From NCBI GenBank assembly GCA_021299385.1, contig JAJTGZ010000020.1, forward strand, positions 1 to 45,060: DNA of 45,060 nt. The letters run 5' to 3'. Below, piece by piece: positions 38,896 to 43,652 of the stretch. The translations under genes were made by a program, and so were the position numbers. The first letter of the stretch is position 1. Each line of letters opens with the position of its first letter. Source of the DNA: Phycisphaeraceae bacterium. Its GTDB lineage: Bacteria > Planctomycetota > Phycisphaerae > Phycisphaerales > UBA1924. Below the pieces are notes generated by a model. The model made no database searches, was not told the origin of the DNA, and worked only from the letters and a program-made list of their open reading frames with translations.

Positions 38896-40341
38896 ATGAA
38901 CGGCACCGACCAGACCAGCTTTGCAGAGGCCGCCGACGAGGGGATCGATCCGGGCGTGCTGGCCCACGCCATCGACTCGCACGAACGGCACACCAAGCCG
39001 AGGCTAGCGATGCTCTGGGACTACTACCGCAACCCGATGACCTTCACCACCCCCGGCGTGCGCGACGGGCGCGGCTACCGGCTTGGCCAGGAGCGCGGCC
39101 TGCCGTTACGGCTGAGCAATCCTGCCGCGCTGGGCATCGACAACGACGACCGCCTCCGCAGGCGCGAGGTCGTCATCGAGAACGACATTGCCTGGCGTGT
39201 GGGCACGATGATCGACTTTCTCTTCGGCAAGCCGATCCGCCTGGTCAGCACGGCGGCGGACGCGGGGCTGGCGCGCGAGATCGAGCGTGCGCTCGAGCGT
39301 GTCTGGGAGTCCAGCGGCGGGTTGACACTGCTGCAAGAGGCCGCGCTGTACGGGCACGTCTTCGGGCACGTTGACCTGCGTGTGCGCCGGGCCGATGAGC
39401 CTGGCGAGCGTGCGACGCTGCCCGAGCATGCCGTGCGCATCGATGTGCTCGACCCGAGGCAGACGGTGGTGCTGCACAGCGCCGAGGCGTTTGACACCCG
39501 TGATGCGGGGCCGATGGGCGTGGCGATCCGGCGTGCGACGAAGTTGCCCGGGCAGCGTGAGGTCTGGCACACGCAGGTGCTCACGCCAACGGGCGTGCTG
39601 ACGTTCAAGGACGCCGGGGACGGCGCTCGGCTGGTTGCCAGCGCACGCAACGGCGTGCGCCCCGGCGAGGTGCCGGTGGCGCACATCCAGAACGCCGCGA
39701 CGGGCGCAGGGTGGGCGGGCCTGGGCGAGGTCGAGCCGCTGGTGTCGTTGCAGGATGAACTGAACACACGCCTGAGCGACAGGGCCTATCGCGTAACGCT
39801 GCAGAGTTTCAAGATGTACCTGGTCAAGGGGCTGGGGCTGGGCGCGGGGGACCGGCCCGTCGGGCCGGGGCTGGTCTGGAGCACCGACAACCCCGACGCG
39901 CACATCGAGGCGTTCGGGGGGGACTCGGCCAGCCCCAGCGAGAGCGAGCACATCGAGCAGATCCGCGAGGCGATGGACAAGGTCTCGGCCGTGCCGCCGC
40001 TGGCGACGGGCGTGGTGCGGGCGCGGATCGGGAACCTCTCCAGCGAGAACGCGCTGCGATTGACGCTGCAGGGTCTGCTCTCGCGCACGGCACGCAAGCG
40101 GATCGCCTATGGGCGCGGCATCACGCGGGCGTGCGGGCTGGTGCTCGATGCGCTGCACGAAGCGGGCGTGCTGCGCACAAAGCCGACGGACCGCACCGTC
40201 CGCATCGAGTGGCCCGAGGCGATCACCGGCGACAGCGAGAGCGCAGTCCGCGGGGCCAAGGAGAAGCTGGAGCTGGGCATCACCAGGGAGCAGGTGCTTA
40301 CGGAACTCGGGTACGCCGCGGGGGACCCGGGGGTGCAGTAG
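38896..40341 (+). CDS. phage portal protein, SPP1 gp6-like
   Basis: A 481-residue portal-type protein. In phages, twelve copies form the ring at one capsid vertex through which DNA enters and leaves. The layout fits the SPP1 gp6 family: RLAMLWDYYRNPMTFTTPGVRD near the N-terminus, VIENDIAWRVGTMIDFLFGKPIRLVS, a central wing region (VRIDVLDPRQTVVLHSAEAFDT), PVAHIQNAATGAGWAGLGEVEPLVSLQDELNTRLSDRA, and SAVPPLATGVVRARIGNLSSENALRLTLQGLLSRTARKRIAYGRGI. The ATG at 38896 follows AGCAGGAG. Length and motifs look intact. No terminase gene precedes it; a lamin-tail gene lies upstream. Base composition is like the host's, suggesting long residence. Confidence 0.85.
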   Translation: MNGTDQTSFAEAADEGIDPGVLAHAIDSHERHTKPRLAMLWDYYRNPMTFTTPGVRDGRGYRLGQERGLPLRLSNPAALGIDNDDRLRRREVVIENDIAWRVGTMIDFLFGKPIRLVSTAADAGLAREIERALERVWESSGGLTLLQEAALYGHVFGHVDLRVRRADEPGERATLPEHAVRIDVLDPRQTVVLHSAEAFDTRDAGPMGVAIRRATKLPGQREVWHTQVLTPTGVLTFKDAGDGARLVASARNGVRPGEVPVAHIQNAATGAGWAGLGEVEPLVSLQDELNTRLSDRAYRVTLQSFKMYLVKGLGLGAGDRPVGPGLVWSTDNPDAHIEAFGGDSASPSESEHIEQIREAMDKVSAVPPLATGVVRARIGNLSSENALRLTLQGLLSRTARKRIAYGRGITRACGLVLDALHEAGVLRTKPTDRTVRIEWPEAITGDSESAVRGAKEKLELGITREQVLTELGYAAGDPGVQ

Positions 40342-40401
40342 ACGTGCGGGCGGGCGGTTGACACAAACACAAAGACAGGCAGACACAAAGGAGGCGGGCA
40401 C

Positions 40402-40818
40402 ATGAGCGATGGCACGGCAGGGCAGGGTGGGCAAGCAGGCGACGACGGCGAGGGGCTGGCGCAGAAGTTGATCGGTGAACTTGCGCAGGTCAAGGCGGAA
40501 CTGAGGCGGGCGCAGGAGGCGATCGGGGGTGTGGAGCGTCGGCGGACCGTCGAGCGTGCGGCCGTCGAGGCGCAGGCGCGGGACGTGCAGGCGGCGGCGG
40601 ACGCCATCGAGCAGCGTCTGTCGGCCGGTGCGACGGACGTTGCGCAGGCGTTGCGTGAGATCAAGCGCGAGAGGCCTGGGTTGTTCGGGGTGCCGGCGCG
40701 TGCGGGCGTGGAAGGGGGTGATGGTGCCGTGAGCCTGACGGCGCTGCGTGAGCGTGCGCGGACGGGGGATCGGGCGAGTTTGCTGCTGTATTTGCAGGCC
40801 CGTCGTGAGAAGCCGTGA
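40402..40818 (+). CDS. coiled-coil protein of the head module, possible scaffold
   Basis: A 138-residue protein. AAAGGAGG lies directly upstream of the ATG. Residues about 20-75 form a heptad-like helix (LAQKLIGELAQVKAELRRAQEAIGGVERRRTVERAAVEAQARDVQAAADAIEQRL), then ALREIKRERPGLF and a helical end. Its position between portal and capsid genes and its coiled coil are those of phage scaffolding proteins. No protease signature is seen, so it may be expelled uncleaved. Scaffold is an inference from position. Confidence 0.6.
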   Translation: MSDGTAGQGGQAGDDGEGLAQKLIGELAQVKAELRRAQEAIGGVERRRTVERAAVEAQARDVQAAADAIEQRLSAGATDVAQALREIKRERPGLFGVPARAGVEGGDGAVSLTALRERARTGDRASLLLYLQARREKP

Positions 40819-40924
40819 GGGTTTGGTTGTGGGTGTTGTGATGGGCGTGGGCGCCCGTCGGCGGTGATTTGAGGGTGTGGTGGAGTGGGTTTGGGTTGCA
40901 GGGAAGAACAAAGGAGATTTGCAC

Positions 40925-42088
40925 ATGCCGTTTACAGGAAAGAGCAGTTTCAATGCTGGGGCGGACTTGCCGGAGATTGCCGAGGACATTGCGGATTTGG
41001 TGGGGATCATCTCGCCGAGCGAGGCTCCGCTGCTGGACCACCTTGGTGATTCTGGGCGGTCTGCGGTGAGCACGGTGCACGAGTGGCTCGAGGACGAGCT
41101 GCTGCCGAACACCGACACGATTAACCAGACGACCTTCACGCCCAACGCGACGGACGCGACGGCGATCACGGTGGCCAACGGCTCACGGTTCCGCGCGGGG
41201 GACACGGTGCGGCCCAACGGTGCGCGTGAGGTGCTGCTGGTTACGGACGTTATCGGCAACGTGCTGACGGTGTCGCGTCGGTACGGGAGTTCGCCGGCCA
41301 GCGCGGTGAGCAACGGGCAGCGTCTGACGATCATCGGCAATGCGGCGCTGGAGGGTGACGATGCGCCGCCGGCGCGGTTTACCAACCGGGTGCGCAAGAG
41401 GAACTTCACGCAGATTTTCTCGGCCAGCGTGAGCGTGTCGGGCACCCTCGCGGCGGCGCGGAAGGTGGCGGTGGGCGACGAGGTGGAGTATCAGAAGGCC
41501 TCGCGTCTGCGTGAGTTGATCCGCGACCTGGAGAACAGCATGATCAACGGTGTTGCGCCGACGGCGACGCAGCAGGGGTCGGCAACGGTTCGGCGGACGA
41601 TGAGCGGGATTCTGCCGCAGTTGACCAGCAACGTGATGGTCCCGGGCGCGGGCGGGATCCCGGCCGGGGGCGGGCCGGGTACGGAGCTGAACGAGGGCGT
41701 GCTCAACGCGGCGTTGAGGCAGATCTGGGACGGCAGCAGCGGGCGCGTTGACACGATCGTCGTAGGCGGGACGATGAAGCGGCGGATCAATGCGTTCCTA
41801 ACGCCCTTGCGCGAGGCGAGCCTGAGCGAGGGGCGTTTCCGGGACATGGTCAGTGTCTACGAGAGCGACTTTGGCGCGTGCAAGGTGGTGCTGAGCCGGT
41901 GGATGCCGGCCGACACGGTGCTGCTGGTGGACAGCTCGCGCCTGGCGGTGCTGCCGCTGTCGGGCCGAAGCTTCGCGTACAAGCCGATGGGTGCCAGCGG
42001 GGACCGCGATAACGGTTTGGTCGTCGGTGAGTACACGCTGGAGCTGCGCAACGAGGCGGCGCACGGCCTGATCCGCGGGTTGACGTGA
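40925..42088 (+). CDS. major capsid protein, SU10-type (DUF5309-like)
   Basis: A 387-residue protein. AAAGGAGATTTGC precedes the ATG at 40925; an in-frame start 16 codons upstream is disfavoured. The N-terminus (DLPEIAEDIADLVGIISPSEAPLLDHLGDSG) and middle (RFTNRVRKRNFTQIFSASVSVSGTLAAARKV, DEVEYQKASRLRELIRDLENSMINGVAP, RRTMSGILPQL) match the SU10 major capsid/DUF5309 family, an HK97-like fold. The C-terminal part (VDTIVVGGTMKRRINAFL, VYESDFGACKVVLSRWMPADTVLLVDSSRLAVLPL) completes the domain. A separate head-maturation protease is not present. A strong hairpin follows the gene, so transcript levels may drop afterwards. Confidence 0.82.
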   Translation: MPFTGKSSFNAGADLPEIAEDIADLVGIISPSEAPLLDHLGDSGRSAVSTVHEWLEDELLPNTDTINQTTFTPNATDATAITVANGSRFRAGDTVRPNGAREVLLVTDVIGNVLTVSRRYGSSPASAVSNGQRLTIIGNAALEGDDAPPARFTNRVRKRNFTQIFSASVSVSGTLAAARKVAVGDEVEYQKASRLRELIRDLENSMINGVAPTATQQGSATVRRTMSGILPQLTSNVMVPGAGGIPAGGGPGTELNEGVLNAALRQIWDGSSGRVDTIVVGGTMKRRINAFLTPLREASLSEGRFRDMVSVYESDFGACKVVLSRWMPADTVLLVDSSRLAVLPLSGRSFAYKPMGASGDRDNGLVVGEYTLELRNEAAHGLIRGLT

Positions 42089-42109
42089 TGTCGGCGGCGG
42101 GGTGGCGCT

Positions 42110-42135
42110 CCCCGCGCCGCGAGAGCGGCGCGGGG
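42110..42135 (+). terminator. hairpin after the capsid gene
   Basis: A perfect 11-base-pair stem, CCCCGCGCCGC / GCGGCGCGGGG, with a GAGA loop, is followed by GGTTTGTTGG. It sits between the capsid gene and the next head gene and could partially terminate or protect the upstream transcript, giving excess capsid protein. Confidence 0.55.
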
Positions 42136-42187
42136 GGTTTGTTGGTGGTGTTGGTGTGGGGTTTGTGGTGCTTGCAGAAAGGGACGC

Positions 42188-42823
42188 ATGTTTGCCACTG
42201 ATCGAGACCTTCTGGTGATCGAGCCGCAGGCGTTTGCACGGCTGGCGTGGCTGGGGCAGCGGGTGTTGTCGGGGACGGGGAGCGTCAGCGGGACGGCGTT
42301 GACGCTGACGGGGGCGACGTTTGCCTCGCGCGGCATCGGCGTCGGGAGCGTGCTGCTGCTGGCGGGCGTGCCGGTGGAGGTGGTGGCGATCACCGGCGCG
42401 AGCACGGCGACGGTCTCGATCGCGCGTGCGGGGGTCAACGACCCGGCGATCGCCACGGGGCTGAGCGGGAGCGTCGCGGTGGCGGGCTTTACGTTCGGGC
42501 CGCAGATCGCGCTGGCGCACCGGCAGGTGATGCGGATGGTGGGCGTGGACCCCGACGGGGTGGTGCCGGGCAGTGTGGTGCCCGGGCAGGTCAAGAACCC
42601 GCGTGAGGTGGCGTGGCTGGAGGCCCTGCTGGCGCTGCGGCTGATCTATGCGGCGCAGGCCACGGCGGTGGGGCACGAGGCGCAGATGGACCGCTCGCTG
42701 CGGCTGCTGGATGATCGGCTGCGCTCGGCCGTGGGGGAGTTGCGCGTGCTCATCGACACCGATGGGGACGGGTTGGCCGACGTGGTGCGTGTGGTGGGTG
42801 TGGCGGGCGTGGTGAGGAACTAA
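42188..42823 (+). CDS. head-module protein, unknown (possible adaptor/completion protein)
   Basis: A 211-residue protein. GAAAGGGACGC precedes the ATG, a modest ribosome site. The N-terminal half (VLSGTGSVSGTALTLTGATFASRGIGVGSVLLLAGVPVEVVAITG) is a beta-rich, gly/val domain resembling a small barrel. The C-terminal half is helical (EVAWLEALLALRLIYAAQATAVGHEAQMDRSLRLLDDRL). It ends with DTDGDGLAD, a calcium-site-like motif. The helical part and its position after the capsid gene fit a head-tail adaptor. I cannot name a family. Confidence 0.55.
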   Translation: MFATDRDLLVIEPQAFARLAWLGQRVLSGTGSVSGTALTLTGATFASRGIGVGSVLLLAGVPVEVVAITGASTATVSIARAGVNDPAIATGLSGSVAVAGFTFGPQIALAHRQVMRMVGVDPDGVVPGSVVPGQVKNPREVAWLEALLALRLIYAAQATAVGHEAQMDRSLRLLDDRLRSAVGELRVLIDTDGDGLADVVRVVGVAGVVRN

Positions 42824-42835
42824 AAGGAGCGTGCG

Positions 42836-43234
42836 ATGCTGATCCTGGAGCCGGACGAGGTTGTCTGTGTTGGTGTGCGGTTGTCGGGTGTGCAGAGTGT
42901 CTCGGTCAACGAGGAGGCGTTGGAGGTGGTGGCCGAGGGTGGGGATGGTGGGCCGCACCTGACGTTCGTGGACGTGCCGCTGCAGCGTGTGCGGGTGGAT
43001 ATCCGCCAGAGTGTGCCCGAGGGTGATGCGTTTGCGTTATCCGTCGGGCTGGAGGGTGCCCTCTTGGTGCGCTGGTCGGCGGGGGGGCGTGGCGGGGACG
43101 TGCGCGGGATCAACGCGCGGGGTGTGGTCGTCTCGTCGCAGTACACCTTCGACAGCGGCAAGGGGGCGACGCGGGTGGTCAGCGTGGTGTGCGTCAGTGA
43201 TGACGGGGCGGCTTCGCCGGTGGTTGTGCAGTAA
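42836..43234 (+). CDS. head-module protein, unknown, beta-rich
   Basis: A 132-residue protein with AAAGGAG just upstream of the ATG and only 12 bases after the preceding stop. The sequence alternates beta strands (VVCVGVRLSGVQSVSVNE, HLTFVDVPLQRVRVDIRQSV, GALLVRWSAG, VVVSSQYTFDSGKGATRVVSVVCVSDDG), with no cysteine cluster or membrane segment. A decoration protein or head-completion protein is possible, but no family is recognised. Confidence 0.55.
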   Translation: MLILEPDEVVCVGVRLSGVQSVSVNEEALEVVAEGGDGGPHLTFVDVPLQRVRVDIRQSVPEGDAFALSVGLEGALLVRWSAGGRGGDVRGINARGVVVSSQYTFDSGKGATRVVSVVCVSDDGAASPVVVQ

Positions 43235-43250
43235 AAGGGAGGGGTGGGCA

Positions 43251-43652
43251 TTGGCAGAGACCTTTGTTGGACAGGATCTTTTCACGTCCGGGCCGAGGAG
43301 GTATGTTGTTGAGCCGATCGGGTTCATGGTCATCCCGCGTCTGCGGCTGAACCAGCCGGTCAGCGGGTCGGTCTCCCTGGGCCCGGCGGAACTGGGGGTG
43401 CAGGTCGTTGGCCGGCTGGTCGCCAAGGACGAGCCAAGCCTGGACGAACTGGTAGGGCCGATCCAAGAGCTCATGAGCGGCGCGGTGCCGGCGGTCGGGA
43501 CGCTCATCGATATGCAGGGGCATACGTACCTCGACATGTCGCTGGTGAGTTTCCAGCGTCGCGGCGGCGAGAAGGGCGCGGGGTTCGTTGACCGCGGGCG
43601 GGATTGTTCGCTGGCGTATGTCGCAAGGTTCCTGCGTTTGAACCCGATCTAG
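43251..43652 (+). CDS. head-module protein, unknown, TTG start
   Basis: A 133-residue protein. The start is read as TTG at 43251 because AAAAGGGAGGGG lies directly upstream and the preceding gene stops 17 bases earlier; no ATG is usable before residue 29. Residues include ETFVGQDLFTSGPRRYVVEPIGFMVIPRLRLNQPVSGSVSLGPAELGVQVVGRLVAKDEPSLDELVGPIQELMSGAVPAVGTLIDMQG, a mixed alpha/beta pattern. It ends AYVARFLRLNPI. I do not recognise a family; by position it may be a head-tail joining protein. It is the last gene of the module. Confidence 0.55.
   Translation: MAETFVGQDLFTSGPRRYVVEPIGFMVIPRLRLNQPVSGSVSLGPAELGVQVVGRLVAKDEPSLDELVGPIQELMSGAVPAVGTLIDMQGHTYLDMSLVSFQRRGGEKGAGFVDRGRDCSLAYVARFLRLNPI

Follow-up and report, generated by a model that had tools for sequence, protein, structure and literature searches.

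We identified a block of six phage-derived genes in a Phycisphaeraceae genome. It is likely the head half of a phage system that was domesticated, is vertically inherited and is split over two loci, and thus a candidate gene transfer agent (GTA) of independent origin. Gene content suggests that Phycisphaerae, which are aquatic and soil bacteria, still make DNA-packing virus-like particles. Such particles would probably represent a previously undescribed gene transfer agent.

The window (the whole 45,060-nt stretch of DNA analysed) is the entire contig C18 of draft genome G000 (2.63 Mb, 95% complete). As it is a single contig of a draft genome, the absence of a feature within it says little. 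Comparisons were made with 101 relatives, nearly all of them Phycisphaerales or Phycisphaeraceae, and with 396 sampled genomes of the class. The sequence-only reading had reported six co-directional genes with good ribosome sites at 38896-43652, and their existence, coordinates, order and sizes were all confirmed. It had offered a domesticated capsid or gene-transfer-like particle, a satellite and a decayed prophage as explanations. The first is strongly supported by class-wide conservation, congruent trees and purifying selection; the other two are weighed below.

Genes of the head block

The features are as follows.

38896..40341, + strand: portal protein, SPP1 gp6-like, 481 aa (Pfam SPP1_portal 2.1e-16; PHROG portal 2.7e-16)
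40402..40818, + strand: coiled-coil protein in the scaffold position, 138 aa (no Pfam match)
40925..42088, + strand: major capsid protein, SU10 type, 387 aa (Pfam SU10_MCP 1.7e-83; PHROG major head protein 4.9e-72)
41090..41113, + strand: insertion site of an element, capsid codons 56-63 (EDELLPNT), placed from the junctions in relatives and intact in the window
42110-42136 (about), + strand: GC-rich hairpin after the capsid gene (sequence and fold)
42188..42823, + strand: conserved protein after the capsid, 211 aa (conserved in the block; AlphaFold pLDDT 93)
42836..43234, + strand: small conserved protein, 132 aa (conserved in blocks of the window's family)
43251..43652, + strand: predicted tail-hub / Dit-like protein, 133 aa, most likely with a TTG start

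The proposed portal and SU10-type capsid identities are unambiguous by both Pfam and PHROG. The portal is syntenic in relatives whose sequence covers the stretch (39-51% identity across the whole protein), and the capsid has structural relatives in the PDB (9ny2, 9in6, 7z45). We place the capsid start at ATG 40925 rather than at GTG 40877 because of an AAGGAG ribosome site and because all relatives share this start. The coiled-coil protein lies between portal and capsid in relatives too, and a profile match occurs at the same place in some free phages; we infer that it is the scaffold. The gap after the capsid gene is 99 bases long. A role for its hairpin as a terminator or attenuator is plausible from the sequence, with a fold z of only -1.8 and with hairpins at this place in relatives that differ in sequence.

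The top structural matches of the 211-aa protein are phage neck proteins, at a Z of only 7.8, which is below the reliable level, and it is a probable head-tail neck or adaptor protein. The 132-aa protein was not found in the examined blocks of other families. The model of the last protein (AlphaFold pLDDT 84) has a predicted tail-hub (Dit-like) fold of the tail-tube/Dit family of baseplate hub proteins: Foldseek matches are phage baseplate hub and SPP1 Dit proteins, the best with a Z of 10.4 over 115 residues (9b45_S).

The lamin-tail and SpoIIE genes said to bound the block are both present (PF00932, PF07228), but neither adjoins it in relatives, and we dropped them as system components and treat them as local neighbours only. 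A lipoprotein (c7) that often lies 3' of the block was likewise rejected as a member and is treated as a host gene because it is present also in genomes without the capsid. No lysis genes were recognised; a one-membrane-span protein adjoining the block in relatives is only weakly spanin-like, and the window has no such gene behind its block. GC content is 0.684 in the six genes and 0.659 in the preceding rest of the contig.

Conservation, inheritance and selection

The capsid gene was identified in 75 of the 101 relatives and, using a class-wide profile, in 178 of the 396 class genomes. Almost all copies are full-length and the only one in their genome, and the encoded proteins are 53-73% identical to that of the window, members of other orders included. 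More than 30 loci preserve the gene order portal, scaffold-like, capsid, neck-like, to which the window's family adds the 132-aa protein and the tail-hub gene. The search for the block in related genomes that had been proposed at the outset thus came out in favour of its conservation. Neighbouring genes are ordinary chromosomal genes that differ among genomes. The block has no att-like or conserved ends, and its presence is not variable within genera, with most genera of the family positive. We also looked in relatives for a full prophage at the same site, which had been named beforehand as the finding to set against domestication, and found none.

Vertical inheritance was evaluated by comparing FastTree trees of the capsid and the large terminase (TerL, see below) with that of RpoB for 30 genomes. 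The capsid tree has 13 of 27 splits in common with the RpoB tree and the TerL tree 11 of 27 (maximum over 500 label permutations, 4 and 3, respectively). Mantel correlations with RpoB distances are 0.73 for the capsid and 0.74 for TerL, values reached in none of 1000 permutations. A few local conflicts with the RpoB tree remain. The proposed dN/dS test of portal and capsid, run by the Nei-Gojobori method on five species of one genus, indicates purifying selection (capsid 0.04-0.20, portal 0.08-0.18); the terminase gave 0.11-0.25.

These results bear on the possibility that the block is a decaying remnant of an ordinary prophage. Its phage origin is clear, its head genes occur without integrase, replication or recognised lysis genes, and the capsid gene of one relative (G071) has an in-frame stop. 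However, the genes are intact across the whole class, dN/dS is 0.04-0.25, the trees track RpoB, catalytic residues are invariant, and the site holds no full prophage in relatives. None of the features that would mark a prophage (integrase, att sites, variable presence in close relatives) was found. Decay is refuted by the class-level conservation and selection, and we consider it very improbable.

Several observations concern individual lineages. The stop in G071 (locus L191) and one in G563 are each the only in-frame stop in an otherwise full-length capsid gene, and reflect either sequencing error or early loss. Second SU10-type capsid genes, 29-32% identical, occur elsewhere in G063, G071, G079, G030 and G043, and probably belong to ordinary prophages. 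In the sampled members of family f2 (G061, G066, G070, G074 and others) capsid and terminase are both absent, except in G086, and this is a clean lineage-specific loss. Many f2 members have small genomes.

A second locus encodes the terminase

No terminase, integrase or protease was identified within the 45,060-nt window. The earlier statement that a terminase is missing holds for contig C18 but not for the genome, which encodes a terminase operon elsewhere. A search with Terminase_6N gave weak matches that trace to one conserved second locus, and the large terminase of the window's own genome is at G000:C26:17151-18707 (E 7.7e-175), in an intact operon on a separate contig from the head block. 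With a profile built from an alignment of the second-locus terminases, about 82 of the 101 relatives are positive, five of these being weak matches to other terminases. Outside the Phycisphaerae, sampled genomes of the phylum lack this type of terminase but for partial or weak matches and one more distant copy (G365, 2e-60). A Terminase_6N match on contig C55 of G000 (L096, 5168 bp) was rejected as the terminase of the system. This short phage-like contig carries many small phage-like genes, and its match is unrelated to the domesticated terminase.

The order of genes at the second locus is a divergent XRE-S24 repressor, a sigma-region-4-like protein, an ABC ATPase, a GNAT-like (acetyltransferase-like) protein that is fused or split among genomes, a small HTH protein and the large terminase. 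The HTH protein, not recognised in every genome, occupies the position of TerS. Matches to S24 (8e-12) and sigma region 4 (3e-6) identify the regulatory genes. The TerL profile matches solved phage large terminases, and the 30 aligned sequences show no variation in the Walker A GKT, the Walker B DE or the nuclease aspartates (GMDFG, DPAG, DHAxDALRY). The repressor bears the full self-cleavage signature of LexA/CI proteins (an Ala-Gly site with catalytic Ser and Lys): 19-20 of 20 sequences retain the Ala153-Gly154 cleavage site, Ser192 and Lys230. Small conserved genes (t4-t6), for short membrane-protein-like and charged proteins, are often directly beside the terminase (L091, L132-L134, L136, L140, L145, L146), and are beside the repressor in L137.

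Terminase and capsid co-occur with an odds ratio of 26, a value that ignores kinship among close relatives. TerL occurs without the capsid in eight genomes and the capsid without TerL in six, which we count against the GTA reading, and these cases may be draft-genome gaps or true loss. Where both loci are on one contig (35 examined genomes), they are 10 kb to 982 kb apart (median 39 kb), within 100 kb in 27 of the 35. In G030 the terminase locus directly follows the head block. A shared 16-base operator or promoter motif, sought between the terminase locus and the region upstream of the portal, was not above shuffled sequence.

The second locus is also relevant to whether the block could be a phage satellite, or another mobile element, that borrows packaging functions. 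In favour of this, the structural genes are a compact set at one locus. Yet the matching terminase is in the same genome and is co-inherited, and the neighbours of the block are ordinary chromosomal genes that differ among genomes. Neither locus has an integrase among its conserved genes, and the claim that integrase is missing was borne out for the window's family. The block also shows no att-like ends, no variable presence within genera, and none of the mobile island, integrase and helper packaging of PICI-type satellites. The vertically inherited system with a terminase of its own leaves the satellite explanation extremely improbable.

Tail genes and delivery

In basal families, the block continues into a tail/fibre-like cluster of about 8 kb (Laminin-G, a Gp80 fibre and large unknown proteins). 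A marker of this cluster (c12) is in no genome of families f1 or f4 and in no sampled f8 genome, though the capsid is there. One f9 locus and one f92 locus are reduced to portal, scaffold, capsid and neck genes plus a small membrane protein and/or lipoprotein. It looks as if the tail/fibre cluster was lost repeatedly, judged from c12 as only one marker; other tail genes could have gone unrecognised. The earlier claim that there is no tail is thus partly right: the cluster is absent in the window's family, but the window is not wholly tailless, given the tail-tube/Dit-like fold predicted for its last gene. With the cluster gone, particles of this family would have at most a short hub.

The missing cluster makes DNA transfer the weakest step of the GTA reading. 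To our knowledge, all accepted gene transfer agents have tails, and for the window's family we count this against that reading. An alternative is that the domesticated capsid and packaging genes serve no gene delivery and are not strictly a GTA, with tail-poor particles that pack DNA inside the producer or free it at lysis (e.g., for DNA sequestration, altruistic death or as a decoy). Consistent with this, capsid and terminase are intact in f1, f4 and sampled f8 genomes in which tail/fibre-like genes were found nowhere, and the single f9 and f92 loci hold little beyond head genes. Retention of the tail-hub-fold gene, the tail/fibre cluster still in place in basal families and the chance that unrecognised tail genes sit elsewhere all speak for delivery. 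We regard a system without delivery as unlikely.

Free-phage relatives

In IMG/VR contigs with capsids 35-37% identical to that of the window, one cluster unites the capsid with a portal-sized gene, a terminase of the same family and often a scaffold match (e.g., L242, L244, L245). The chromosomal capsids form a clade separate from those of the free phages. This fits an origin of the head and terminase loci from one ancestral prophage that was broken up by rearrangement and host-gene insertion. Two IMG/VR contigs fall within the chromosomal capsid clade. One (L238) contains the operon in its chromosomal form, tail/fibre cluster included. The other (L236, IMGVR_UViG_3300033145_000895) is phage-like, with a capsid 57% identical to that of the window, and is a possible case of phage recapture of the domesticated capsid.

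Among the portal, scaffold and capsid genes of the related free phages, no separate protease gene is obvious. The lack of one is therefore probably ancestral. The earlier remark that the module has no protease is correct for the window but misleading as a headline, as distant free phages likewise have no obvious one.

An element inserted in the capsid gene

Some relatives have an element inserted in the capsid gene, which it cuts at codons 57-60 (G005, G020, G039, G086 and loci L050, L052, L060). The same split occurs in G072, in an inverted arrangement, and in G060, over two contigs. Insertion at this site recurs across several genera and families (loci L062/L063 in G039, L064/L065 in G086, L077 in G005, L078 in G020 and L079 in G072). 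Where both ends are present, 10.9-11.6 kb lie between the capsid halves. The junctions read ...GAGGAYGCGCTC|GTATCCCGTCTGAC and ...TCAGACGGGTAAGCAGYGTGGACACGCT..., and the frame of the downstream capsid half is still open; new start codons are possible close to the junction.

The constant part of the element encodes a large serine recombinase, a HARE-HTH protein, an AAA ATPase, a protease-like/capsid fusion and a sigma-like protein; the variable part encodes restriction or methylation genes. Relatives of the fusion protein were found in 47 of the 101 genomes, and G085 alone has two dozen matches. Such elements make up a large family of capsid-encoding integrative elements that is apparently undescribed.

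The closest precedent is that of the helper-embedded satellites (HE-PICIs; PMC10111431), which insert into a phage-derived unit and interrupt one of its late structural genes until they excise. Here too, integration is in a late gene of a phage-derived unit, at the same codon in at least seven loci. Unlike HE-PICIs, the element has a large serine recombinase and inserts into a domesticated capsid gene instead of a helper prophage; a protease-capsid fusion of its own and restriction/methylation-type cargo are further differences. An integrase of the HE-PICI clade with AlpA was not found, and the five core proteins have no AlpA match in Pfam.

Comparison with known systems

A GTA is defined by proteins derived from tailed phages, an endogenised genome that is often spread over several loci and mostly vertical inheritance; it packs mostly random host DNA, its own genome is not fully packageable, and it delivers DNA (PMC9662315). 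From genes alone, we find three of these six characteristics in the Phycisphaerae system, which makes it a candidate and not a proven GTA. They are tailed-phage ancestry (portal, SU10 capsid, large terminase and tail-hub fold), endogenisation over two loci, and vertical inheritance (30-genome trees of capsid and TerL compared with that of RpoB). The distance between the loci makes their joint packaging unlikely.

Like RcGTA (Rhodogtaviriformidae), BaGTA (Bartogtaviriformidae) and BhGTA (Brachygtaviriformidae), the Phycisphaerae have endogenised phage head and terminase genes over several loci (PMC9662315, PMC11841831) that are vertically inherited, under selection and of host-type composition. 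Unlike those GTAs, this system has a Phycisphaerae host, a capsid of the SU10 type and, among its control genes, a sigma-like protein and an S24 repressor of the self-cleaving type; it lacks the tail/fibre cluster in the window's family, and it is known from genes alone. The tailed phages of IMG/VR (L242, L244, L245) have the same capsid and terminase families, but in one TerL-portal-scaffold-capsid cluster and with further phage genes, whereas the chromosomal copies are a clade of their own at two loci. SU10 and similar podophages (PDB 7z45, 9ny2) have the capsid fold family in common; they are complete, lytic and tailed, and their sequence similarity to the block is only distant. We found no GTA or domesticated capsid reported for Phycisphaerae in the set of papers searched, subscription journals and bioRxiv aside.

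Possible mechanism and significance

Stress such as DNA damage may cleave the S24 repressor and turn on the terminase locus, and the sigma-like protein may then activate the distant head operon. Judging from the intact parts, portal and capsid would assemble a head around the scaffold, and the terminase would cut chromosomal DNA as it is met and pump until the head is full (headful packaging). Particles would exit via lysis of the producing cell. In the window's family they may be unusual in how they enter the recipient, or may not inject at all. A more specific scenario, which we put forward tentatively and consider rather unlikely, is that Phycisphaerae kept an ancient phage head and DNA pump and repeatedly lost the tail/fibre genes. 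Their nearly tailless, DNA-filled capsids would then have a role other than classical injection (e.g., protected DNA freed for uptake by competent kin), and serine-recombinase satellites would have evolved to sit in the capsid gene, switching it off.

Few lineages have a proven gene transfer agent. A 2024 review (PMC11841831) names as open problems how common GTAs truly are and how new ones can be recognised by bioinformatics, and the GTA viriform families are polyphyletic (PMC9662315, PMC11841831). The Phycisphaerae system, found class-wide, split over two loci, under selection and with another type of capsid, would be a further independent GTA domestication, and its loci are mapped in hundreds of genomes. 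Its genes are concrete targets for deletion, DNA damage is the predicted inducer, and the natural replicates of tail loss among its families could separate packaging from delivery.
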